This document shows, piece by piece, positions 2,557 to 9,740 of a stretch of DNA of 11,148 nucleotides (the first letter of the stretch is position 1; every line of letters begins with the position of its first letter). Source of the DNA: Candidatus Parcubacteria bacterium (GTDB lineage: Bacteria; Patescibacteriota; Minisyncoccia; Phycocordibacterales; Zambryskibacteraceae); assembly GCA_019661805.1 (NCBI GenBank), contig JAIFWR010000013.1, forward strand, positions 1 to 11,148. Direction: 5' to 3'. The position numbers and the translations under genes were made by a program. Under the pieces are notes generated by a model. The model saw only the letters and a program-made list of their open reading frames with translations. It made no database searches and had not been told where the DNA came from.

Positions 2557-2562
2557 TAATCT
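2557..2562 (+). promoter_or_regulatory. Putative -10 element of the gene at 2569 (leaderless type)
   Basis: TAATCT (TANNNT pattern) ends 6 bases before the ATG at 2569, and the overlapping GATAAT lies at 2555-2560. No Shine-Dalgarno is present in the short gap. It overlaps the stop codon of the upstream gene. Confidence 0.45.
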
Positions 2563-2568
2563 TTTAGC

Positions 2569-2991
2569 ATGTTCAGGCAATTCCAAAAGCTTCAAAGGGC
2601 GACGGGGAACTTCTTCGGCATCCTCCTCTTCCTCACCGTAGCCCTCCTCGGCTCGACAGCCTACCTCGGGAAGACCGTCTATGACATGAGGAAGCCCGCC
2701 CTCTCGGCGGAGGCCCAGGTGCGAAAGCTCGTCGAGGAGGTGGGCCAGGCCATCATCCTGCCTCAGGACGAGCTCCCGACGGTCGCGAAGGTTGCCGATG
2801 CCTCTCAGCTCTCCGACCAGCCCTTCTTCGCGAACGCGCGCACGGGCGACAACATTTTGATATTTGAAAAGTCGAAGAAAGCGGTCCTCTGGCGCCCTTC
2901 GGTGAGGAGAGTGGTCGAGGTCTCCTCGCTTGCCGCCGCGGCCGCCTCTGTGCCCAAGCCGGAAGAGGTAAAGAAGGTCTCGGGCCAGTAA
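2569..2991 (+). CDS. Small single-pass membrane protein of unknown function
   Basis: 140 residues. A hydrophobic helix at about residues 15-36 (F-F-G-I-L-L-F-L-T-V-A-L-L-G) follows a basic N-terminus, giving one membrane anchor with the rest probably outside. The outer part carries L-P-Q-D-E-L-P-T-V-A-K-V-A-D, then Q-P-F-F-A-N-A-R-T-G-D-N-I-L-I-F and a K-K-A-V-L-W-R-P-S motif, a pattern I recall from uncharacterised Parcubacteria proteins. The C-terminus is Ala/Lys-rich. It starts 12 bases after the fibre gene stop on the same strand, but a TAATCT hexamer 6 bases before the ATG suggests its own leaderless start. It ends 7 bases from the convergent folD. No enzymatic motif is recognised; a role near the surface protein is only suggested by neighbourhood. 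Confidence 0.75.
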   Translation: MFRQFQKLQRATGNFFGILLFLTVALLGSTAYLGKTVYDMRKPALSAEAQVRKLVEEVGQAIILPQDELPTVAKVADASQLSDQPFFANARTGDNILIFEKSKKAVLWRPSVRRVVEVSSLAAAAASVPKPEEVKKVSGQ

Positions 2992-2998
2992 AATACAA

Positions 2999-3796
2999 TC
3001 ACTTCCGAAGCGCGTATGCGTCGAGAAGATTCTCAAAGAGCGACGCGACGGTCATCGGGCCGACGCCGCCAGGGACAGGGGAAATAGCGCTGACGATCTT
3101 AGAGACTTTTTCAAAATCAACATCCCCGACCATTTTGCCGTTTACCATATTGATGCCGACGTCGATTACGACCTGATGTTTGGAGATATGCTGTGCGGTA
3201 ATAAGCTTTGGCTTGCCTGCCGCGACGACGAGGATATCGGCTTGCTTCGTCTCTTTCGCGATATTCTTCGTTTTGCTGTGGCAGACTGTCACGGTGGCAT
3301 CGCGGTTTAAGAGCGCAAGCGCGGTCGGTTTGCCGACGAGCTCGGAGCGGCCCACGACGACCGCTTTCTTGCCCGCAATTGGAATCTTATAGTGGTCAAG
3401 AAGAGTGAGAATACCGCGCGTAGTGGCAGGGAGGAAAAAGGCGCTTCCATCCACCGCCTTTTCCGGCAGAACCGCTTGCGAGATGACTCGTTCATCGAGT
3501 TGCTTCGGCAATGGCAATTGTACGATGATGCCATGGACCGATTTGTCTCGATTAAGTTTCTCGATGTGGGAAAGAAGCGACATTTCGCTCACTGTTTCAG
3601 CGAGCCTCACGTGTTCCGCCACAGCGCCGATCTTCTCGGCGAACTTTAATTTATTCCTGATATAAGCGTTCGACTCATCCTTATTGCCGACCTGGATGAT
3701 GACAATCTTCGGCTTCTGTTTGAGCCGACTTATCCTTACTTTCAGCTTCTCGGCAATGAGGAGGGAGAGAGTCTTTCCGTCTAGAATTTTTGTCAT
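2999..3796 (-). CDS. folD: FolD: methylenetetrahydrofolate dehydrogenase / cyclohydrolase
   Basis: 265 residues. The cytosolic bifunctional enzyme interconverts 5,10-methylene-, methenyl- and 10-formyl-tetrahydrofolate using NADP. Visible family motifs: Y-x-x-x-K with Y45 and catalytic K49; Q-L-P-L-P at 93-97; V-D-G at 115-117; the NADP-binding G-R-S-E-L-V-G-K-P at 149-157; and P-V-P-G-G-V-G-P-M-T at 240-249. The segment between V-D-G and the G-I-L-T-L-L helix is about 15 residues shorter than in the usual roughly 285-residue enzyme, so the common P-C-T-P signature is reduced to P-A-T-T. GC is lower than in neighbouring genes. The gene is divergent from tRNA-Lys, 27 bases apart, and convergent with the membrane protein gene at 2569-2991. 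The start M-T-K-I-L-D-G-K matches the family start. Confidence 0.95.
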   Translation of the reverse strand: MTKILDGKTLSLLIAEKLKVRISRLKQKPKIVIIQVGNKDESNAYIRNKLKFAEKIGAVAEHVRLAETVSEMSLLSHIEKLNRDKSVHGIIVQLPLPKQLDERVISQAVLPEKAVDGSAFFLPATTRGILTLLDHYKIPIAGKKAVVVGRSELVGKPTALALLNRDATVTVCHSKTKNIAKETKQADILVVAAGKPKLITAQHISKHQVVIDVGINMVNGKMVGDVDFEKVSKIVSAISPVPGGVGPMTVASLFENLLDAYALRK

Positions 3797-3802
3797 ATTT
3801 AA

Positions 3803-3810
3803 GGTATATT
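3803..3810. promoter_or_regulatory. Overlapping divergent -10 elements of folD (-) and tRNA-Lys (+)
   Basis: On the minus strand TATACC (3803-3808) ends 6 bases before the folD ATG. On the plus strand TATATT (3805-3810) lies 13 bases before tRNA-Lys. They share four base pairs, so the two polymerases could not occupy the site together. No clear -35 is seen for either. The folD hexamer lacks the final T of the pattern found at other genes here. Confidence 0.4.
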
Positions 3811-3823
3811 TTCGAGGCGTGTT

Positions 3824-3896
3824 GCGCCCATAGCTCAGTCGGTAGAGCAGGTCCCTTTTAAGGACAAGGTCGTTGGTTCGATCCCAACTGGGCGCA
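3824..3896 (+). tRNA. tRNA-Lys (anticodon TTT)
   Basis: A 73-base cloverleaf. Acceptor GCGCCCA pairs with TGGGCGC, the D stem is GCTC/GAGC, the anticodon loop CTTTTAA carries TTT at 34-36, the T stem is GTTGG/CCAAC with loop TTCGATC, and the discriminator is A. CCA is not encoded. The top pair of the anticodon stem is G27-A43, a mismatch. It ends 13 bases before the convergent DoxX-family gene. Confidence 0.97.
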
Positions 3897-3909
3897 CAGA
3901 GTACACAAA

Positions 3910-4314
3910 TTATAGCGGAATGTCGAAGGCGTAGGCGCCAGCACCGGTAAAGAGGAGCGAGAGGGAGATGACGAAGAGGAAGAGGTAGAAGGTGAGGTCA
4001 CGCTTGAGGATCGCCCGGCCGGACCACTCGATATAGAGCTCACAGAAGGTGAAAACGGCGAAGAGGAGCGCCGCGACCTGGGTCCAGAGCCCGATCACGA
4101 GGAGGACGCCGCCCGCTACTTGGAGCGCGCCGTAGAGGGGGACGAAGAGGCCGGTGGGGCGCATGTGAAGCGCCTCGAAGGAGACTACCCAGCGGCTTTT
4201 CTCACTTTTGAACTTAAGGATACCTAAGTCTATAAAGACGAGCCCGAGGACAAGGCGGAGGAGGAAGGGCGCCAACATAGCGTAATTCAAGAGGTCGGGG
4301 AAAGGATTAAGCAT
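3910..4314 (-). CDS. DoxX-family integral membrane protein
   Basis: 134 residues with four likely membrane helices at about 14-33, 56-76, 78-95 and 107-127. Family-like marks are the first helix L-R-L-V-L-G-L-V-F-I-D-L-G-I-L-K-F, the G-A-L-Q-V-A-G-G-V-L-L-V-I-G-L-W helix, and the C-terminal T-G-A-G-A-Y-A-F-D-I-P-L ending typical of the DoxX/DoxD-like group. It sits in the cytoplasmic membrane; family members are linked to thiosulfate:quinone or redox-stress functions in some bacteria, but the role here is unknown. It follows mutM by 23 bases on the same strand and has its own TACTAT hexamer 6 bases before ATG. Confidence 0.85.
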   Translation of the reverse strand: MLNPFPDLLNYAMLAPFLLRLVLGLVFIDLGILKFKSEKSRWVVSFEALHMRPTGLFVPLYGALQVAGGVLLVIGLWTQVAALLFAVFTFCELYIEWSGRAILKRDLTFYLFLFVISLSLLFTGAGAYAFDIPL

Positions 4315-4320
4315 GTCTAA

Positions 4321-4326
4321 ATAGTA
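4321..4326 (-). promoter_or_regulatory. Putative -10 element of the DoxX-family gene (leaderless type)
   Basis: TACTAT on the minus strand, separated from the ATG by exactly 6 bases (TTAGAC), with no Shine-Dalgarno between. It lies in the 23-base gap after the mutM stop. Confidence 0.5.
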
Positions 4327-4337
4327 GCATGGGGGCC

Positions 4338-5201
4338 TTATTTCTTACCATACAGGACTTGGTGCACAGGGCAGAAGTGGGCGCTCCGGGTGCCGATGAC
4401 GAGACGCGTGATGGTGCCCGGGCAGCCCCTTTTTCCGCACGGCTTCTTGGTCCGACGGTAAGCTTGGTGGCGGGCCTGGAACTTTCCTGCCTCGCCCTCG
4501 ATATTTTTGTAATCCGACGTCGAGTCTCCGCCGAAGTCGATGCCCTCCTTCAATAGTTCCTTCGTTGCTTTGAACATGTCCTTCATGTTTTTCTCCGGAA
4601 TCTTTTCCACAACCGAGAGGGGATGCACGCATGAGCGCCACAGGATCTCGTCGGAGTAGATGTTGCCGATGCCCGCGACGACGTAGGGGTCCATCAAGAC
4701 CTGCTTTACCTTGCCCTTCGGCCGCATCATAAGCCGCGCCTTGAAGGCCGGGTAATTAAATGAGTCTTCAAGCGGTTCCGGGCCGAGGCCTTTCAAATGT
4801 ATCGAGTCGTGCACCCCGGCGGTCGGTGCAAGGGCGACCTTGGCGAATTTGCGGAGGTCGGAAAAGGAGAGAATTTTGCCGTTGTCGAGGGTAAACGCCA
4901 GACGGACGTGTGGGTAGTCCGCGCGATCGTAGACGAAGTGCCCCGTCATCTTCATATGGACGATGATCGTGTCGCCGCCCGACAAATGGATCAGAATGTT
5001 TTTGGCCCTCCGCTCGGCCTTGATGATCTCCTGCCCGACGACTTTCTTCTGAAACGTTTTGAAAAAGGCGGGATTCTTGATCTCCTCCCTCTTTTTATAA
5101 AAAGGGCTGTCGTACGTCGTCCTTACAGCAGTTATCCTCCTTCCTCTGACAGTCTTATTGAGCCCGTCGACGGTTGTTTGGACTTCCGGCAGTTCAGGCA
5201 T
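4338..5201 (-). CDS. mutM: MutM/Fpg: formamidopyrimidine-DNA glycosylase / AP lyase
   Basis: 287 residues. Base-excision repair enzyme that removes 8-oxoguanine and other oxidised purines and nicks the abasic site. The N-terminus is M-P-E-L-P-E-V, giving the catalytic Pro and Glu after Met removal. K67 sits in R-R-A-K-N-I-L-I-H-L. H-M-K-M-T-G is at 82-87, D-L-R-K-F at 115-119, and G-I-G-N-I-Y-S-D-E at 177-185 in the helix-two-turn-helix region. The C-terminal zinc finger has C255 and C260 (C-x4-C) and C277-P-V-H280 rather than the usual C-x2-C pairs, so the ligand set would be Cys3-His. The finger arginine (R272) is retained. The start overlaps the ruvA stop by 8 bases, so the two are probably cotranscribed, although TATTAT 6 bases upstream could also give an own start. 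Confidence 0.96.
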   Translation of the reverse strand: MPELPEVQTTVDGLNKTVRGRRITAVRTTYDSPFYKKREEIKNPAFFKTFQKKVVGQEIIKAERRAKNILIHLSGGDTIIVHMKMTGHFVYDRADYPHVRLAFTLDNGKILSFSDLRKFAKVALAPTAGVHDSIHLKGLGPEPLEDSFNYPAFKARLMMRPKGKVKQVLMDPYVVAGIGNIYSDEILWRSCVHPLSVVEKIPEKNMKDMFKATKELLKEGIDFGGDSTSDYKNIEGEAGKFQARHQAYRRTKKPCGKRGCPGTITRLVIGTRSAHFCPVHQVLYGKK

Positions 5202-5772
5202 CCCGAGATAATACTCTTAAAGCCTCTTTGACGCGATCGCTTGCGCCCCGAATCTCCTTGGGCACCCTCTTCAGCGCTTCCCTAGCGTCGCGTTCCGAAT
5301 AGCCGAGGGAGATGAGCGCCTCCATGGCGTCGCCCTCGCTCTTCGCGTCGGCATGCGGTGCCTCGCCCTCCTTCGGCGAGAGCTTGTTCTTCAATTCTAA
5401 GACGATCTTCTCGGCGTTCTTCTTGCCGATGCCGGAGACCCGGGTGAGGTAGGAGGTGTCGCCCGAGCCGACGGCCTGGCGGAGCGTGGCGGGGGAGGCG
5501 ACGTTCAATATCCCAAGGGCGGTCTTGGGGCCGATGCCGGAAATGGTAATGAGAAGCTCAAAGGCCTCAAGAGCCTCCCGCTCGGTGAAGCCGAAGAGCT
5601 CGAGCGAGGTTTCGCGGACAGCCAAATGCGTCCAGAGGAAGAGCGGCCGGGAGGGGAGGGCCTCGAGGAGGACGTCCGTGGGCACCAAGACGCGGTAGCC
5701 CACGCCCGAGACGTCGAGGATGACGGAGTTAGCGTCCTTGTGGCGCACCGTGCCTGCCAATGCGGCGATCAT
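5194..5772 (-). CDS. ruvA: RuvA: Holliday junction branch-migration DNA-binding subunit
   Basis: 192 residues from the ATG at 5772. RuvA tetramers bind four-way junctions and load the RuvB helicase. The N-terminal OB-fold domain begins M-I-A-A-L-A-G-T-V and includes S-G-V-G-Y-R-V. Two helix-hairpin-helix motifs follow: I-S-G-I-G-P-K-T-A at 77-85 and V-S-G-I-G-K-K-N-A at 112-120. After an acidic linker (about 133-147) a C-terminal RuvB-binding domain contains E-A-L-I-S-L-G-Y-S-E-R-D-A. A longer in-frame start 18 bases upstream is rejected because family members begin at M-I-A and because TATAAT lies between the two. It is divergent from rpsT (37 bases apart) and overlaps mutM at its 3' end. 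Confidence 0.96.
   Translation of the reverse strand: MIAALAGTVRHKDANSVILDVSGVGYRVLVPTDVLLEALPSRPLFLWTHLAVRETSLELFGFTEREALEAFELLITISGIGPKTALGILNVASPATLRQAVGSGDTSYLTRVSGIGKKNAEKIVLELKNKLSPKEGEAPHADAKSEGDAMEALISLGYSERDAREALKRVPKEIRGASDRVKEALRVLSRDA
5208..5213 (-). promoter_or_regulatory. Putative internal -10 element of mutM
   Basis: TATTAT on the minus strand inside the 3' end of ruvA, exactly 6 bases before the mutM ATG. It matches the spacing seen at other genes here, but it lies within coding sequence and may be coincidental. Confidence 0.35.
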
Positions 5773-5778
5773 CTTGCT

Positions 5779-5784
5779 ATTATA
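5779..5784 (-). promoter_or_regulatory. -10 element of ruvA (leaderless type)
   Basis: A perfect TATAAT on the minus strand, 6 bases before the ruvA ATG. No TTGACA-like -35 is evident at the expected distance. The divergent rpsT -10 is 13 bases away, so the two promoters interlock. Confidence 0.6.
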
Positions 5785-5797
5785 GGCCAAACCCTGC

Positions 5798-5803
5798 TAT
5801 ATT
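5798..5803 (+). promoter_or_regulatory. -10 element of rpsT (leaderless type)
   Basis: TATATT, then 6 bases (GCCCCC), then the rpsT ATG. A weak -35 candidate TTGCTA (5774-5779) lies 18 bases upstream and overlaps the ruvA -10 region by one base. Confidence 0.5.
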
Positions 5804-5809
5804 GCCCCC

Positions 5810-6073
5810 ATGCCAATCACCAGAAGCGCCAAGAAGGCCCATCGCCAGTCGCTCCGCCGGCGCGCCTTCAATGCCGCGCGGAAGAACAGGGTCCAAGGCG
5901 CGGTGAAGTCCCTCAAGAAGATCGCTCTCACAGGCGACAAGAAGGCCGCCCAGAAGCAGATGTCCCTCGTCCAGAAGGCCCTCGACAAGGCCGTCAAGGC
6001 GGGCACCCTCAACAGGAACGCTGCCGCGAGGAAGAAGTCCCGGCTCTCGAAGCTTCTCAAGAAAGGTTCCTAA
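5810..6073 (+). CDS. rpsT: Small ribosomal subunit protein bS20
   Basis: 87 residues, the usual bS20 length, very basic. It binds 16S rRNA early in 30S assembly. Family signature from the start: M-P-I-T-R-S-A-K-K-A-H-R-Q-S-L-R-R-R-A-F, then N-A-A-R-K-N-R-V, and the second-half pattern Q-K-A-L-D-K-A-V-K-A-G-T-L, N-x-A-A-R-K-K-S-R-L-S-K. It is preferentially C/G-ending in codon use, as expected for a highly expressed gene here. No Shine-Dalgarno precedes the ATG. It ends 10 bases before the convergent tRNA-Arg(CCG). Confidence 0.97.
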   Translation: MPITRSAKKAHRQSLRRRAFNAARKNRVQGAVKSLKKIALTGDKKAAQKQMSLVQKALDKAVKAGTLNRNAAARKKSRLSKLLKKGS

Positions 6074-6083
6074 TCCAATAGCC

Positions 6084-6155
6084 TGCCTCCACCAGGAATC
6101 GAACCTGGATCACAAGCTTCGGAAGCTTGCGTTCTATCCGTTGAACTATGGAGAC
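6084..6155 (-). tRNA. tRNA-Arg (anticodon CCG)
   Basis: A 72-base cloverleaf. Acceptor GTCTCCA pairs with TGGAGGC (one T-G wobble), the D stem is GTTC/GAAC, the anticodon stem CAAGC/GCTTG closes loop TTCCGAA with CCG at 34-36, the T stem is CCAGG/CCTGG, and the discriminator is A. CCA is not encoded. It is the downstream member of a tandem pair, 2 bases after tRNA-Arg(GCG). Confidence 0.96.
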
Positions 6156-6157
6156 GG

Positions 6158-6229
6158 TGCTCTCAGTAGGAATCGAACCTACATCTTAACCTCCGCAAGG
6201 TTATGTCCTATCCATTGAACGATGAGAGC
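6158..6229 (-). tRNA. tRNA-Arg (anticodon GCG)
   Basis: A 72-base cloverleaf. Acceptor GCTCTCA pairs with TGAGAGC, the D stem is GTTC/GGAC, the anticodon stem TAACC/GGTTA closes loop TTGCGGA with GCG at 34-36 and G37, the T stem is GTAGG/CCTAC, and the discriminator is A. The anticodon reads CGC/CGU. Bacteria normally use ACG (A34 edited to inosine) for these codons, so GCG is unusual. The only bases between it and the next tRNA are CC. Confidence 0.95.
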
Positions 6230-6252
6230 GCTCGCGCTAACGAGGCCATGCT

Positions 6253-6258
6253 AGCATA
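6253..6258 (-). promoter_or_regulatory. Possible -10 element of the tandem tRNA-Arg pair
   Basis: TATGCT on the minus strand, 23 bases before the 5' end of tRNA-Arg(GCG). It is weak, with no clear -35. Confidence 0.25.
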
Positions 6259-6266
6259 TTTGTTCC

Positions 6267-6294
6267 TTTACATAAAACGTTAACGTTGTAATAT
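6267..6294 (+). promoter_or_regulatory. Promoter of the basic sORF with an internal palindrome
   Basis: -35-like TTTACA (6267-6272), a 16-base spacer and -10-like TAATAT (6289-6294). The spacer contains the perfect 12-base palindrome AACGTTAACGTT (6276-6287), which sits exactly where a dimeric repressor would block RNA polymerase. The predicted transcript start is near 6301, giving a 5' UTR of nearly 50 bases, unlike the other genes here. Confidence 0.5.
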
Positions 6295-6338
6295 CGGGCA
6301 TGGGCAGCATGTGCCGCCCTTTCATCCACCACCGTCCG

Positions 6339-6343
6339 AGGAG
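6339..6343 (+). promoter_or_regulatory. Shine-Dalgarno site of the basic sORF
   Basis: AGGAG, 5 bases before ATG. It is notable because neighbouring genes lack such a site, and it fixes the sORF start. Confidence 0.6.
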
Positions 6344-6348
6344 TGCGC

Positions 6349-6465
6349 ATGAAGAAATCGGGTCGTAAGAACAGCGTGAAGATCAGCAGGCGGGCGAAGC
6401 GTCACGTGTACAAGCGCAGAAGGCGGTGGTCGCAGAATCCAACCGTCGCGCGGTCGTTCGGCTAA
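6349..6465 (+). CDS. Very basic 38-residue small protein, unrecognised
   Basis: The ATG is 5 bases after AGGAG (6339-6343), the only strong Shine-Dalgarno I see in the window. The 38-residue product has 6 Lys and 9 Arg, no Asp or Glu, a central R-R-A-K-R-H-V-Y-K-R-R-R-R-W stretch and an uncharged tail N-P-T-V-A-R-S-F-G. It has its own promoter upstream, and a hairpin plus a strong intrinsic terminator downstream, so it is an independent transcription unit. Size and charge suggest a nucleic-acid binder: a small ribosome-associated protein or a nucleoid protein. It does not match bL34, bL36, bTHX or bS21 as I recall them. Reality of the gene is supported by the coherent signals; function is unknown. 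Confidence 0.65.
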   Translation: MKKSGRKNSVKISRRAKRHVYKRRRRWSQNPTVARSFG

Positions 6466-6472
6466 CCGAACG
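6455..6472 (+). other. Perfect hairpin with the sORF stop codon in its loop
   Basis: CGTTCGG (6455-6461) pairs fully with CCGAACG (6466-6472) around loop CTAA, which contains the TAA stop. It is a 7-bp stem with a 4-base loop, 17 bases before the terminator stem. It may protect the 3' end or affect termination of translation; the role is inferred. Confidence 0.5.
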
Positions 6473-6489
6473 CCGACAAGCAATTTCGA

Positions 6490-6517
6490 GGGCGCCGCAT
6501 CCGTGCGGCGCCCTTTT
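6490..6517 (+). terminator. Rho-independent terminator of the basic sORF unit
   Basis: A perfect 10-bp stem, GGGCGCCGCA (6490-6499) with TGCGGCGCCC (6504-6513), loop TCCG, followed by TTTT (6514-6517). On the minus strand the hairpin is not followed by a T tract, so it serves the plus strand. It is the only convincing intrinsic terminator in the window. Confidence 0.9.
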
Positions 6518-6523
6518 CACGTA

Positions 6524-6982
6524 TTAAAATCCGATCCGCTCAAGGAGCCGCTCGACCAAGGGCAGCTCATGGTGCTCCTCGGAGATATGCTGCGAGAGCG
6601 TTCCGGCCGCCTCGTCCGGGTCGGCGCCGCCCAAGGGGACGAGGATAAGCGGCACGTAGGGCTTCTCTGAGCGCAGGTAGATCCGCGGGTGCGAGTGCCA
6701 CGAGTCGATCCAGAAGGAGTGGAGGCTCTCGAAGGGGTAGAGCACGCCCGCCTTCGTCACGCCACGCTCGTCTATTGAGACCTCGACCGTATGCGGCTCG
6801 CGGTTTATGAAGAGGGCGAGGGTAAAGGCCGCAACGAGGATGAGGATCCCGAGGATGATGTTGCCGAAGATCGCCGCCGTGAGCGCGAGCGCGACCGCGA
6901 CGATGCCGACGGCCCAGAACCAGTCCGAGCTCCGCTCCTTGTACTCGTAGGCGTGCGCCTCCCACTCGATACGCGTTTTCAT
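6524..6982 (-). CDS. Two-helix membrane protein of unknown function, Parcubacteria-type
   Basis: 152 residues from the ATG at 6982 (a TTG one codon earlier is less likely). The N-terminus has W-E-A-H-A-Y-E-Y-K-E-R-S-S-D-W-F-W, then two adjacent membrane helices at about 23-39 and 41-59 joined by a G-N turn. A soluble C-terminal part follows with strands V-E-V-S-I-D-E-R-G-V, S-F-W-I-D-S-W and I-Y-L-R-S-E-K-P, ending L-V-E-R-L-L-E-R-I-G-F. The pattern matches uncharacterised CPR proteins I recall, resembling a PH-like fold after a membrane hairpin; the fold is inferred. It follows the tRNA-binding protein gene by 5 bases on the same strand. TAAAAT lies 7 bases before the ATG. Confidence 0.75.
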   Translation of the reverse strand: MKTRIEWEAHAYEYKERSSDWFWAVGIVAVALALTAAIFGNIILGILILVAAFTLALFINREPHTVEVSIDERGVTKAGVLYPFESLHSFWIDSWHSHPRIYLRSEKPYVPLILVPLGGADPDEAAGTLSQHISEEHHELPLVERLLERIGF

Positions 6983-6987
6983 CAATA

Positions 6988-7308
6988 TTATTTTACCACG
7001 CTTCCCGGGGTAACCTCTTTGGCAGGGTGGAGGAGGACGGGGGAATTATCATCGGCACAGAGGATCATGCCTTGGCTTTCCATCCCCATCATCATGCGCG
7101 GCTCAAGGTTTGCCACTACTGGCACGAGTTTGCCCACGAGCGCTTCAGGCTCTACCACCTTGGCAATCCCAGAGAGAATCTGGCGTGGCGGGGCTTCTCC
7201 GAGGTCGACAGAGAGCTTAAGGAGCTTGTCTGAGCCCTCAATGCGCTCAGCAGCAAGCACTTTGCCAATCTTTATTTCGCACTTTTTGAAGTCGTCTAAA
7301 TTAATCAT
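6988..7308 (-). CDS. tRNA-binding (EMAP-II / MetRS C-terminal-type) protein
   Basis: 106 residues, a single OB-fold tRNA-binding domain. Family pattern: I-N-L-D-D-F-K-K-C-E-I-K-I-G-K-V at the start, A-E-R-I-E-G-S-D-K-L-L-K-L at 20-32, R-Q-I-L-S-G-I-A at 42-49, L-V-G-K-L-V-P-V-V-A-N-L-E-P-R at 57-71, and E-S-Q-G-M-I-L at 77-83. In most bacteria this domain is fused to the end of methionyl-tRNA synthetase; here it stands alone, as in the separate MetRS beta-subunit or Trbp111 type, and could act in trans as a tRNA chaperone. The ATG is only 10 bases after the 3' end of tRNA-Ser on the same strand, with no Shine-Dalgarno between. Lower GC than most neighbours. Confidence 0.9.
   Translation of the reverse strand: MINLDDFKKCEIKIGKVLAAERIEGSDKLLKLSVDLGEAPPRQILSGIAKVVEPEALVGKLVPVVANLEPRMMMGMESQGMILCADDNSPVLLHPAKEVTPGSVVK
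6990..6995 (-). promoter_or_regulatory. Putative -10 element of the two-helix membrane protein gene
   Basis: TAAAAT on the minus strand, 7 bases before the ATG at 6982, at the very end of the upstream gene. No Shine-Dalgarno is present. The AT-rich junction makes a chance match possible. Confidence 0.35.
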
Positions 7309-7318
7309 AGTTTTATTG

Positions 7319-7403
7319 CGGAGGGGGTGAGATTCGAACTCACGATACCTTTCGGTATGACGGTTTTCAAGACCGTTGCCTTAAACCACTCGGCCACCCC
7401 TCC
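7319..7403 (-). tRNA. tRNA-Ser (anticodon TGA)
   Basis: An 85-base class II tRNA with a long variable arm. Acceptor GGAGGGG pairs with CCCCTCC, the anticodon stem ACGGT/ACCGT closes loop CTTGAAA with TGA at 34-36, the variable arm has the ATACC/GGTAT hairpin, the T stem is GTGAG/CTCAC, and the discriminator is G as in serine tRNAs. CCA is not encoded. It is followed after 10 bases by the ATG of the tRNA-binding protein gene. Confidence 0.97.
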
Positions 7404-7418
7404 ACGGGCCCTACTCTA

Positions 7419-7658
7419 CTATTTCTCCTCGATCACTTCCATAAGCACTGTGTAGCGTCGCGCGACGAAGAAGAGGTAAATGATCTCGAGAAGGCCGAGC
7501 GTGTTGACGATGAGGAGGGCGATAAACCACCACTTCTGCCTCAGCTCGGCCGCGCGCCAGAGGGCAAAGCCTTTCCAGACAAGCGACCAGAGCACGACGA
7601 GGACGATCGCCAAGAGGGGCAATCCGGTGAGACTCGGCAATGTTTGCATCGATTCCAT
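7419..7658 (-). CDS. DUF5652-like two-helix membrane protein
   Basis: 79 residues from the ATG at 7658. Two hydrophobic segments: L-P-L-L-A-I-V-L-V-V-L-W near the N-terminus, and W-F-I-A-L-L-I-V-N-T-L-G-L-L-E-I-I-Y-L-F-F in the second half. Between them is the motif W-K-G-F-A-L-W-R-A-A-E-L-R-Q-K, the arrangement I recognise as DUF5652, common in CPR genomes. The function is unknown. Alternative starts are TTG at 7664 and ATG at 7649; 7658 fits a TACACT hexamer 7 bases upstream. It lies 15 bases before tRNA-Ser on the same strand and is divergent from ruvX with 26 bases between. Confidence 0.8.
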   Translation of the reverse strand: MESMQTLPSLTGLPLLAIVLVVLWSLVWKGFALWRAAELRQKWWFIALLIVNTLGLLEIIYLFFVARRYTVLMEVIEEK

Positions 7659-7665
7659 AGACAAT

Positions 7666-7678
7666 AGTGTACTATAAT
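7666..7678. promoter_or_regulatory. Back-to-back -10 elements of the DUF5652-like gene (-) and ruvX (+)
   Basis: On the plus strand a perfect TATAAT (7673-7678) is 6 bases before the ruvX ATG. On the minus strand TACACT (7666-7671) is 7 bases before the ATG at 7658. One base separates them, so each -35 would lie inside the opposite gene. The plus-strand hexamer is much the stronger. Confidence 0.5.
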
Positions 7679-7684
7679 TGCGAT

Positions 7685-8068
7685 ATGAAAGTCATGGCGC
7701 TTGATTACGGGGAGAAGCGGGTAGGGCTCGCTTCGACCGACGACGCGGGCACCTTCGCCCTGCCGCGTACGGTGCTCTCAAACGATGCGACGCTCCTCGA
7801 CCAGGTGCTTGCCTTCAAGCTCAAGGAGGGGGTGAGTAAGGTGGTGATCGGGGAGTCGAAGAACTTGGACGGCACGCCGAACCCGATCAATGCCGAGGTG
7901 GAGAAGTTCAAGCGCGCCCTTGAAGAGCGGGGAGTCGAAGTGGTCCTCCATCCCGAAGTCTTTACGACCCAGGAAGCCATCCGCATCCAAGGGGAAAACA
8001 ACCTCACCGACGCCTCCGCCGCCGCCCTCATCCTCAAGAACTACCTCGATTCTCTTAGTGCGGGCTGA
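7685..8068 (+). CDS. ruvX: RuvX/YqgF-family Holliday junction resolvase-like nuclease
   Basis: 127 residues, RNase H-like fold. The family acts as putative Holliday junction resolvase and/or in 16S rRNA 5' end maturation. The first acidic residue D7 is in A-L-D-Y-G-E-K-R-V-G-L-A; V-V-I-G-E-S-K-N-L-D-G-T is at 53-64; E91 is in H-P-E-V-F-T-T-Q-E-A; and the final acidic residue D109 is in T-D-A-S-A-A-A-L-I-L. The usual D-E-R triplet is reduced to P-E-V, keeping only the Glu. An in-frame GTG at 7667 is rejected because it lies upstream of TATAAT (7673-7678) and the family starts at M-x-x-x-A-L-D. The last 10 bases, including the stop, overlap the convergent tRNA-Val gene. Confidence 0.93.
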   Translation: MKVMALDYGEKRVGLASTDDAGTFALPRTVLSNDATLLDQVLAFKLKEGVSKVVIGESKNLDGTPNPINAEVEKFKRALEERGVEVVLHPEVFTTQEAIRIQGENNLTDASAAALILKNYLDSLSAG

Positions 8069-8276: not shown

Positions 8277-8348
8277 GCCCTCGTAGTTCAATGGACAGAA
8301 CGGGAGGCTTCTATCCTTCTAATGTAGGTTCGATTCCTACCGAGGGCA
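8277..8348 (+). tRNA. tRNA-Arg (anticodon TCT)
   Basis: A 72-base cloverleaf. Acceptor GCCCTCG pairs with CGAGGGC, the D stem is GTTC/GAAC, the anticodon stem GGAGG/CCTTC closes loop CTTCTAT with TCT at 34-36, the T stem is GTAGG/CCTAC, and the discriminator is A. CCA is not encoded. A single base (C8349) separates the discriminator from the ATG of the pseudouridine synthase gene. Confidence 0.96.
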
Positions 8349-8349
8349 C

Positions 8350-9101: not shown

Positions 9102-9500
9102 ATGGCAAACAGGGTCATTTCACCGGTCAATATTGAGGAGAGGACAAAGCTCGACTTCCGCGCAGGCGACACCGTCAAGGTCTGGCAGAAGATCCAGGAG
9201 AAGGGCAAAACCCGCCTCCAGGCCTTCGAGGGCCTCGTCCTTGCAAGGAAGCACGGCTCGGAGGCCGGTGCGACCTTTACCGTGCGTCGAGTGGCCTCGG
9301 GCGTGGGGGTCGAGAAGATCTTCCCCCTCTTCTCCCCGGTCATCGACAAGATCGAGGTCTTGAAGCGCACCGAAGTCCGCCGCGCCAAGCTCTACCACAT
9401 CCGTGAGAAGGCCGCCAAGGAGGTCTCCCGCCAGATGAGGAATCTCCGCCTCGAAAAAGAGGTTCCCGAAGCCGCCGGAGCAGAGGTTGAAAAGGCCTAA
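9102..9500 (+). CDS. rplS: Large ribosomal subunit protein bL19
   Basis: 132 residues. bL19 lies at the 30S-50S interface. Family pattern: [10 protein letters not shown] at about 23-32, [11 protein letters not shown] near the middle, [28 protein letters not shown], and [10 protein letters not shown]. The C-terminus is extended and charged. The ATG at 9102 (M-A-N-R-V-I) is chosen over an in-frame GTG at 9087 that overlaps the upstream stop. There is neither a Shine-Dalgarno nor a -10 at the usual 6 bases, so it is probably translated from the upstream transcript. Confidence 0.96.
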
Positions 9501-9665: not shown

Positions 9666-9740
9666 GGTGGCTATGGTGTAGCGGTAGCACTGCAGCTTGT
9701 GGAGCTGCCTGTTCGGGTTCAACTCCCGATAGCCACCCCA
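9666..9740 (+). tRNA. tRNA-His (anticodon GTG), CCA encoded
   Basis: Acceptor GTGGCTA (9667-9673) pairs with TAGCCAC (9730-9736). G9666 is the extra G-1 opposite discriminator C9737, the identity mark of tRNA-His. The anticodon stem GCAGC/GCTGC closes loop TTGTGGA with GTG at 34-36; the T stem is TCGGG/CCCGA. CCA is encoded at 9738-9740. One base later the GTG start of the ABC transporter gene begins. Confidence 0.96.

Follow-up and report, generated by a model that had tools for sequence, protein, structure and literature searches.

Probable start-codon-placed -10 elements and predicted leaderless genes in a Patescibacteria order whose readable 16S tails lack the anti-Shine-Dalgarno sequence

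In an 11,148-nucleotide stretch of a Candidatus Parcubacteria genome (contig JAIFWR010000013.1; the whole stretch is referred to as the window), hexamers of the form TANNNT stand exactly 6 bases before the start codons of six genes. The best explanation, held here at a probability of about 0.85, is that these hexamers are sigma-70-type -10 elements placed by the start codon and that the messenger RNAs (mRNAs) are leaderless, in an order without the anti-Shine-Dalgarno sequence in its 16S ribosomal RNA (rRNA). A positional peak of the hexamer, its recurrence in relatives, the altered 16S tails of relatives, the abutment of start codons on transfer RNAs (tRNAs), and short operon-internal spacers are all observed. 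With the -10 element so placed, transcription would start at the initial A of the start codon, and the leaderless mRNAs would most likely be recognised by ribosomes via their 5'-terminal AUG. Leaderless starts would then be a major way of initiation in a Patescibacteria order whose 16S appears to have lost the anti-Shine-Dalgarno, a loss that may be tied to this change. Where a start codon abuts a tRNA 3' end, removal of the tRNA would yield an mRNA whose first base lies at or beside this codon, and operon-internal starts lying 0 to 8 bases from the upstream stop codon would be served by re-initiation. The newer and stronger point is the order without the anti-Shine-Dalgarno together with start codons at tRNA ends, neither of which was part of the earlier sequence-only reading of the window.

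Positioned hexamers in the window, the genome and relatives

The window is contig 45 of an assembly of 363,229 bases in 59 contigs (78.68% complete, 2.47% contaminated), and the named records nearest to it by ruvA are mostly Candidatus Zambryskibacteria. Gaps are the number of bases between the end of a hexamer and the start codon; G numbers denote genomes and L numbers denote loci or contigs. The hexamers in the window are as follows.

2557..2562, forward strand: TAATCT, gap 6 to the ATG of the gene at 2569, for which no orthologue was found in the named loci
3803..3808, reverse strand: TATACC, a near match, gap 6 to the ATG (3796) of folD, assigned by Pfam
4321..4326, reverse strand: TACTAT, gap 6 to the ATG (4314) of a DoxX gene (PF07681)
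5208..5213, reverse strand: TATTAT, gap 6 to the ATG (5201) of mutM, adjoining the end of ruvA
5779..5784, reverse strand: TATAAT, gap 6 to the ATG (5772) of ruvA
5798..5803, forward strand: TATATT, gap 6 to the ATG (5810) of rpsT
6990..6995, reverse strand: TAAAAT, gap 7 to the ATG at 6982
7666..7671, reverse strand: TACACT, gap 7 to the ATG at 7658 of a DUF5652 protein gene
7673..7678, forward strand: TATAAT, gap 6 to the ATG (7685) of ruvX, overlapping a TATAGT of the divergent DUF5652 gene

Upon re-reading, all six hexamers and gaps claimed by the sequence-only reading were found in place, as were the two gap-7 hexamers (starts 6982 and 7658) and the near match at folD, and no Shine-Dalgarno was seen in the 45 bases before any of these starts. 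By a caller blind to upstream motifs, TANNNT lies at gap 6 before 6 of 14 window starts, which include ATG 100 (within an open reading frame [ORF] truncated at the edge of the window) and 7649 instead of 7658. Given a background of 0.018 per position before ATG starts of the same genome, the chance of at least 6 of 14 is P = 9e-8. Gap 6 was picked after inspection of the window, an objection answered by the genome-wide peak, since it falls at the identical gap.

The genome-wide scan covered 57 of the 58 other contigs whole and contig 2 (21,322 bases) over 20,000 bases, with N at 16,510 positions overall, and 411 genes were called without use of upstream motifs. With the first caller, gap-6 TANNNT was present at 40/375 starts as compared to 4/1581 internal ATGs. 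That caller, which had no ATG preference, was set aside, as it misplaced ruvA (TTG 5790), ruvX (GTG 7667), and the folD of G014 (inside a tRNA); the replacement rule prefers ATG and is still motif-blind, and tRNA gaps were recomputed with the new starts. Under this rule, the upstream check proposed by the sequence-only reading yields a positioned peak, with TANNNT at gap 6 before 44/342 ATG starts as compared to 5 at gap 5 (gaps 2 to 5 give 5, 4, 2, and 5 as listed). Gaps 6 to 9 together account for 94/342 starts, as compared to 16 for the control gaps 2 to 5. Leaderless genes are expected to show a -10 element about 6 to 7 bases ahead of the start codon, and it is present here above chance genome-wide. 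The pooled gap-6 genes (112) also carry marks of a sigma-70-type promoter, namely an extended -10 (T at 0.62 and G at 0.61 at positions -15/-14) and, weakly, a -35-like hexamer at gap 29, about 17 bases from the -10 (13.4% versus 4.1% of other genes).

The peak recurs in relatives. Gap-6 TANNNT was counted at 27/157, 46/208, and 11/101 starts in the related partial-genome sets G014/15, G101, and G087, and at 4/174 and 5/72 (no peak at gap 6) in G098 and G072, two sets retaining CCTCC in the 16S tail. Pattern counts over 80 genomes gave real-to-control ratios for a gap-6 -10 element of 2.33 in the order (n = 30), 2.15 in genomes of the class with a lost or changed tail (n = 12), 1.41 in CCTCC genomes of the class (n = 14), and 1.72 in other classes (n = 24); group counts here and below carry no correction for relatedness. 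An order-like subset of 71 named loci, whose membership was taken from names and similarity and which contains no 16S tail, leaves out seven Giovannoni-/Moranbacteria loci and two G014/15 loci; its members all share the ruvA neighbourhood, so their genes are not independent. In these 71 loci, gap-6 TANNNT precedes 294/1186 ATG starts (10 expected from internal ATGs), as compared to 42 at gap 5 and 125 at gap 7, and at least one gap-6 site occurs in 70/71. Gaps 6 to 9 account for 531/1186 starts and the control gaps for 160. In 79 of the 80 named loci (L279 is dropped because its match begins at residue 3), ruvA has the hexamer, with varying letters, at gaps 6, 7, 8, and 9 in 47, 11, 3, and 14 loci, respectively; sites at gap 12 occur in 11/79, and one locus can hold several sites.

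Orthologues of the window genes (n = 415) were taken as best matches reaching the N terminus, with reciprocity unchecked, and sites at gaps 2 to 5 served as control. The hexamer stands at gap 6 in 44/72 ruvA (control 9), 34/50 DoxX (control 12), 11/50 mutM (13 more at gaps 7 to 9; control 6), 12/67 rpsT (34 more at gaps 7 to 9; control 9), and 20/42 ruvX orthologues (7 at gaps 7 to 9 and 3 abutted by tRNA-Ser; control 3). Orthologues of the gene starting at 6982 have it at gap 6 in 30/57 and gaps 7 to 9 in 21 (control 17), and those of the gene starting at 7658 in 2/11 and 5, respectively. Gap-6 sites were found in 1/25 orthologues of the MetG C-terminal-domain protein gene (MetG-C), 1/21 of rluD, and 0/16 of rplS; TANNNT at gaps 6 to 9 was found in 0/4 folD orthologues, 2 of which abut tRNA-Lys, and the gene at 2569 has no match in the named loci. 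Between this genome and G014/15, 21/72 orthologue pairs carry a -10 at gaps 6 to 9 on both sides, where the margins of 28 and 35 predict 13.6. Leaderless -10 promoters are thus well supported genome-wide and in named relatives, including those of a ribosomal protein and repair genes; as the default of the lineage, as the sequence-only reading had it, the claim is too strong for the fractions seen at gap 6 and at gaps 6 to 9 in this genome (44 and 94 of 342) and in relatives (294 and 531 of 1186).

Two side observations concern the 7658/7685 pair. The TATAGT (7671-7676) lies at gap 6 to an alternative TTG start at 7664 of the DUF5652 gene, and the divergent starts 7658 and 7685 are separated by a 26-base spacer (7659-7684) with overlapping -10-like hexamers. 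This spacer would be wholly promoter if ruvX and the DUF5652 gene are both leaderless.

16S tails, Shine-Dalgarno motifs and start codons beside tRNAs

In the order, 24/32 16S loci could be read to the tail, and CCTCC was found in 0/24. The other orders of the class (26/28 readable) have CCTCC in 14/26 and CTCC alone in 3, and the other classes of the phylum (26/28 readable) have it in 25/26. In tails of the order, the usual GGATCACCTCC is replaced, e.g., by GGAGTAATTCAA, after helix 45. In the single tail of the order that was folded, this helix takes its usual form. Ribosomal protein bS21 contacts the region of the 16S tail, according to the part of PMC9723584 consulted. At E 1e-3, bS21 was detected in 6/30 genomes of the order (1 over cut-off; tails were read for 24 of the 30), 7/12 genomes of the class with a lost or changed tail, 10/14 CCTCC genomes of the class, and 23/24 CCTCC genomes of other classes. 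The difference between 6/30 in the order and 33/38 CCTCC genomes has p = 2e-8, uncorrected for relatedness, and for a protein so short and diverged, non-detection would not amount to proof of loss. Same-strand spacers are consistent with re-initiation within operons, as those of 0 to 8 bases relate to those of 9 to 30 bases as 140:106 in sets without the anti-Shine-Dalgarno and 46:97 in sets with it (p = 3e-6).

That Shine-Dalgarno motifs are missing, as the sequence-only reading claimed, holds for the window genes and for the shared genes tested. Sets of 72 and 92 orthologue pairs yielded none (the start could not be read for 3 to 5 per side), such that core genes appear without the motif, and 1/415 window-gene orthologues has one. 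The claim does not extend genome-wide, because 24/376 starts of this genome carry the motif (see below).

The window starts without a hexamer include three that lie 0, 1, and 9 bases after a tRNA (rluD 8350, the ABC gene 9742, and the MetG-C-like gene 7308).

8277..8349, forward strand: tRNA-Arg, its last base directly before ATG 8350 of an RluA-family gene, called rluD
9667..9740, forward strand: tRNA-His, one base before GTG 9742 of an ABC transporter gene
7318..7403, reverse strand: tRNA-Ser, 9 bases upstream of ATG 7308 of a MetG C-terminal-domain protein gene

Similar arrangements occur in relatives and elsewhere in the genome. Best matches of rluD have tRNA-Val, -Arg, or -Leu 0 to 9 bases upstream in 8/21 named loci (9/22 with the window), and a tRNA lies at 0 bases from the MetG-C orthologue of L279 (1/25 loci). 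For folD, the start comes straight after tRNA-Lys in G014 and 0 or 3 bases after it in L271, whereas the window has a divergent tRNA-Lys and TATACC at gap 6 before folD. Two further genes of this genome start close behind tRNAs, one for a release factor (L020, 0 bases) and one of RNase R type (L052, 5 bases). When tRNA-to-gene pairs were counted within 150 bases, 25 of the 80 pairs in the order sets fell at 0 to 9 bases and 3 at 10 to 19 (p = 3e-5), with the close pairs distributed as 5/8 in this genome (G000), 1/7 in G014/15, 4/8 in G101, and 15/57 in the named loci. Left out of the 80 were L213-L236 (6 pairs), L207-L212 (2 pairs, one at 0), G087 (1 pair, at 10 to 19), and Giovannoni-/Moranbacteria (1 pair, at 1); L237-L266 (CCTCC genomes, 7 pairs) were included in the anti-Shine-Dalgarno sets used for comparison. 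A genome-wide pattern scan from tRNAs to ATGs was not used for counts, as in many cases an ATG behind a tRNA is not necessarily a gene start. The tRNA 3' ends given by ARAGORN often include a C past the presumed discriminator, and cleavage at the discriminator would therefore leave one extra base.

Counter-evidence and alternative explanations

Several results weigh against start-codon-placed promoters in an order without the anti-Shine-Dalgarno as explanation. The genome itself has no assembled 16S, and its tail is taken from three relatives called same-genus (G005, G014, and G015). Gap-6 promoters are also present in partial CCTCC genomes (10/120 starts in G180 and 11/168 in G145) and at 20/102 starts in Giovannoni-/Moranbacteria, where the anti-Shine-Dalgarno state was not read; over whole genomes, -10 enrichment differs modestly between groups (p 0.011-0.012). 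The exact gap is not always kept, with ruvA of G014 at gap 9 and mutM of G014 having none, and the spacer contrast fails in G014/15 (17:19) and G072 (14:13). Concerning tRNAs, G014/15 alone has just 1/7 pairs at 0 to 9 bases; the order sets and the anti-Shine-Dalgarno sets (25/80 versus 2/18) differ with p = 0.14 at this cut-off, or p = 0.15 with L213-L236 added (0/6; 25/86); and RNase Z (TIGR02651, the sole model tried) was over cut-off in 0/80 Patescibacteria genomes. Concerning Shine-Dalgarno motifs, AGGAG or GGAGG at gap 4 to 9 precedes 24/376 starts of this genome, spread over 14 contigs, 39/1186 starts in order-like loci, and 12/101 ATG starts in G087 (L177-L184), a class genome without a CCTCC tail. 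AGGAG real-to-control ratios over the 80 genomes are 1.48 in the order, 1.98 in class genomes with lost or changed tails, 1.66 in class CCTCC genomes, and 1.88 in other classes; the differences are modest (p 0.008-0.04), and the twelve genomes with a lost or changed anti-Shine-Dalgarno, three of which keep CTCC, retain the enrichment.

The tRNA-adjacent starts may instead reflect genome compaction, with promoters elsewhere and no cutting of the tRNA to free an mRNA, an explanation we regard as unlikely though of real weight. It agrees with the RNase Z result, with the two close pairs in the anti-Shine-Dalgarno sets (gaps 7 and 8), and with the nonsignificant group contrast at 0 to 9 bases. The best RNase Z matches have E 1.6e-4 in this genome, a weak match that by its length looks like another metallo-beta-lactamase nuclease, and E 2.8e-25 in order genome G057 (below cut-off). 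Compaction fits poorly with the bimodal gaps of the order sets (25 at 0 to 9 and 3 at 10 to 19 of 80), with retention of the abutment at rluD while the tRNA switches among Val, Arg, and Leu, and with the fact that at gap 0 the upstream sequence is the tRNA itself. At gap 0 to 6, the order and the anti-Shine-Dalgarno sets differ with p = 0.006 (0.011 with L213-L236), for a cut-off chosen afterwards.

It is improbable that working Shine-Dalgarno initiation has been retained beside leaderless genes, via a second copy of the 16S gene or some other rRNA contact. The 24 motif-bearing starts, some of which are interspersed with leaderless genes in the four contigs viewed, would be accounted for in this way, as would similar starts in G014/15, G101, and G087. 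However, two genomes of the order that are 100% complete, G017 and G032, have one 16S match each, both with tails without CCTCC, and the motif is absent from the 72 and 92 pairs of shared genes. In addition, the top-ranking pre-start words include no TTGAA-like complement to the new tail, although AATT/AAATT occur at gaps 0 to 1. Contamination as the origin of the motif-bearing genes was considered, and their co-occurrence with leaderless genes on the four contigs viewed speaks against it; chimeric contigs are possible. Many of the 24 have, by eye, an apparent promoter plus a short leader. Pfam matched six of the ten examined (Gmk, Tmk, Thy1, Band 7, DnaG, and Ham1 families), and no match was found at E 1e-4 in the fetched parts of the G014/15 and G101 genomes. 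One of the 24, dnaG (L034:1336), begins within the preceding gene, and the AGGAG there may be a chance occurrence.

As a separate observation, motif-bearing genes that seem to have their own promoters occur on the same contigs as leaderless genes at L014:216-4834, L022:3124, L035:985 and 3573, L037, L023, and L024. An AGAC word noticed by eye upstream of several motif-bearing genes has 19 matches in the window with at most 1 mismatch (one exact) versus 12.5 expected, a number reached in 8/200 shuffles, and no conclusion is drawn from it.

Quite improbable, too, is that the hexamers are promoters from which many transcripts start a few bases upstream of the codon, giving leaders of 3 to 10 bases that are read without a Shine-Dalgarno. 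Such leaders would suit the shoulder at gaps 7, 8, and 9 in this genome (18, 17, and 21 sites, with 44 at gap 6) and the ruvA sites at gaps 9 and 12 (14/79 and 11/79 loci); the few sites at gaps 2 to 5 and a gap-6 peak confined to a single base argue for the start codon as the usual first codon. That AT-rich pre-start stretches merely keep the ribosome site unstructured, with no promoter, is very improbable, as it would not predict a positioned hexamer, an extended -10, a weak -35 at a 17-base spacer, or a peak one base wide, even though starts free of TANNNT also have AT-rich words near the ATG.

Beyond the start-codon-placed promoters themselves, a broader proposal seems to us evenly balanced: that the order abandoned Shine-Dalgarno initiation for core genes in a mitochondria-like scheme, in which either a promoter at the start codon or a tRNA cut from the front of the mRNA would set the 5' end, with joint loss of the anti-Shine-Dalgarno and bS21, the genes with a perfect Shine-Dalgarno being recently acquired DNA or a second initiation mode.

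Known systems and neighbouring features

In animal mitochondria, tRNA punctuation places start codons beside tRNA 3' ends, ribosomes are without an anti-Shine-Dalgarno, and mRNAs are leaderless. The present case is alike in that some start codons adjoin tRNA 3' ends, the anti-Shine-Dalgarno is missing (in relatives), and leaderless mRNAs are predicted. In contrast to mitochondria, it concerns a small subset of genes, most genes here not being flanked by tRNAs; tRNAs do not separate most genes of a long transcript in this genome, where, among 376 starts, one on the same strand lies within 200 bases of 11/26 tRNAs and within 150 bases of 8. Anti-Shine-Dalgarno losses are reportedly described in a 2021 paper about the ribosomes of organisms with tiny genomes, which may cover part of the present finding.

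In mycobacteria, leaderless gene structures are common, as stated in the part of PMC4633059 consulted. The genes described here resemble mycobacterial leaderless genes in having a -10 positioned just before the start codon and differ in that relatives are without the anti-Shine-Dalgarno, that starts also abut tRNAs, and that they are predicted from sequence. The consulted part of PMC6107228 lists 128 taxonomy identifiers without an anti-Shine-Dalgarno, and generally without Shine-Dalgarno motifs, concentrated in Chryseobacterium, Elizabethkingia, Riemerella, and Blattabacterium (some Bacteroidetes), Mycoplasma, and Carsonella; 'Parcubacteria' is absent from its main text. Shared with those taxa, as far as that part describes them, are a 16S tail without CCTCC, as read in relatives, and genes generally without a Shine-Dalgarno; different here are the involvement of all 24 readable tails of one Patescibacteria order and the presence of positioned -10 promoters. 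Further organisms independent of the 16S/mRNA interaction are described in PMC10783764, in whose main text, as consulted in part, Patescibacteria are unnamed, and the broadly conserved YchF promotes leaderless translation according to the consulted part of PMC12641178. The parts consulted of PMC6851277, PMC10434106, PMC9723584, PMC10582724, and PMC4633059 contain nothing on leaderless mRNAs of this order. In the portions consulted of the literature on leaderless genes and the anti-Shine-Dalgarno in Patescibacteria and the Candidate Phyla Radiation, neither leaderless initiation nor anti-Shine-Dalgarno loss was found for this order, and priority is limited to that search.

If the reading of start-codon-placed promoters is true, loss of the anti-Shine-Dalgarno would be tied to a replacement initiation mode in one clade, for which the related orders keeping CCTCC would be a natural control, and the tRNA-adjacent starts would be a counterpart in bacteria of mitochondrial tRNA punctuation. 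Annotation is concerned as well, since start codons in this order may be placed wrongly by gene finders that look for a Shine-Dalgarno.

Among the remaining features of the window, the rplS start at 9102 has neither a hexamer nor another signal seen upstream. The gene at 6988-7308, downstream of tRNA-Ser, encodes a stand-alone MetG C-terminal tRNA-binding domain (TIGR00399, PF01588). An ORF of 38 codons at 6349-6465, with no match in Pfam or NCBIfam, encodes a basic product, has AGGAG five bases 5' of its ATG, and is accompanied, by eye, by a GC-rich inverted repeat with a following T-run.

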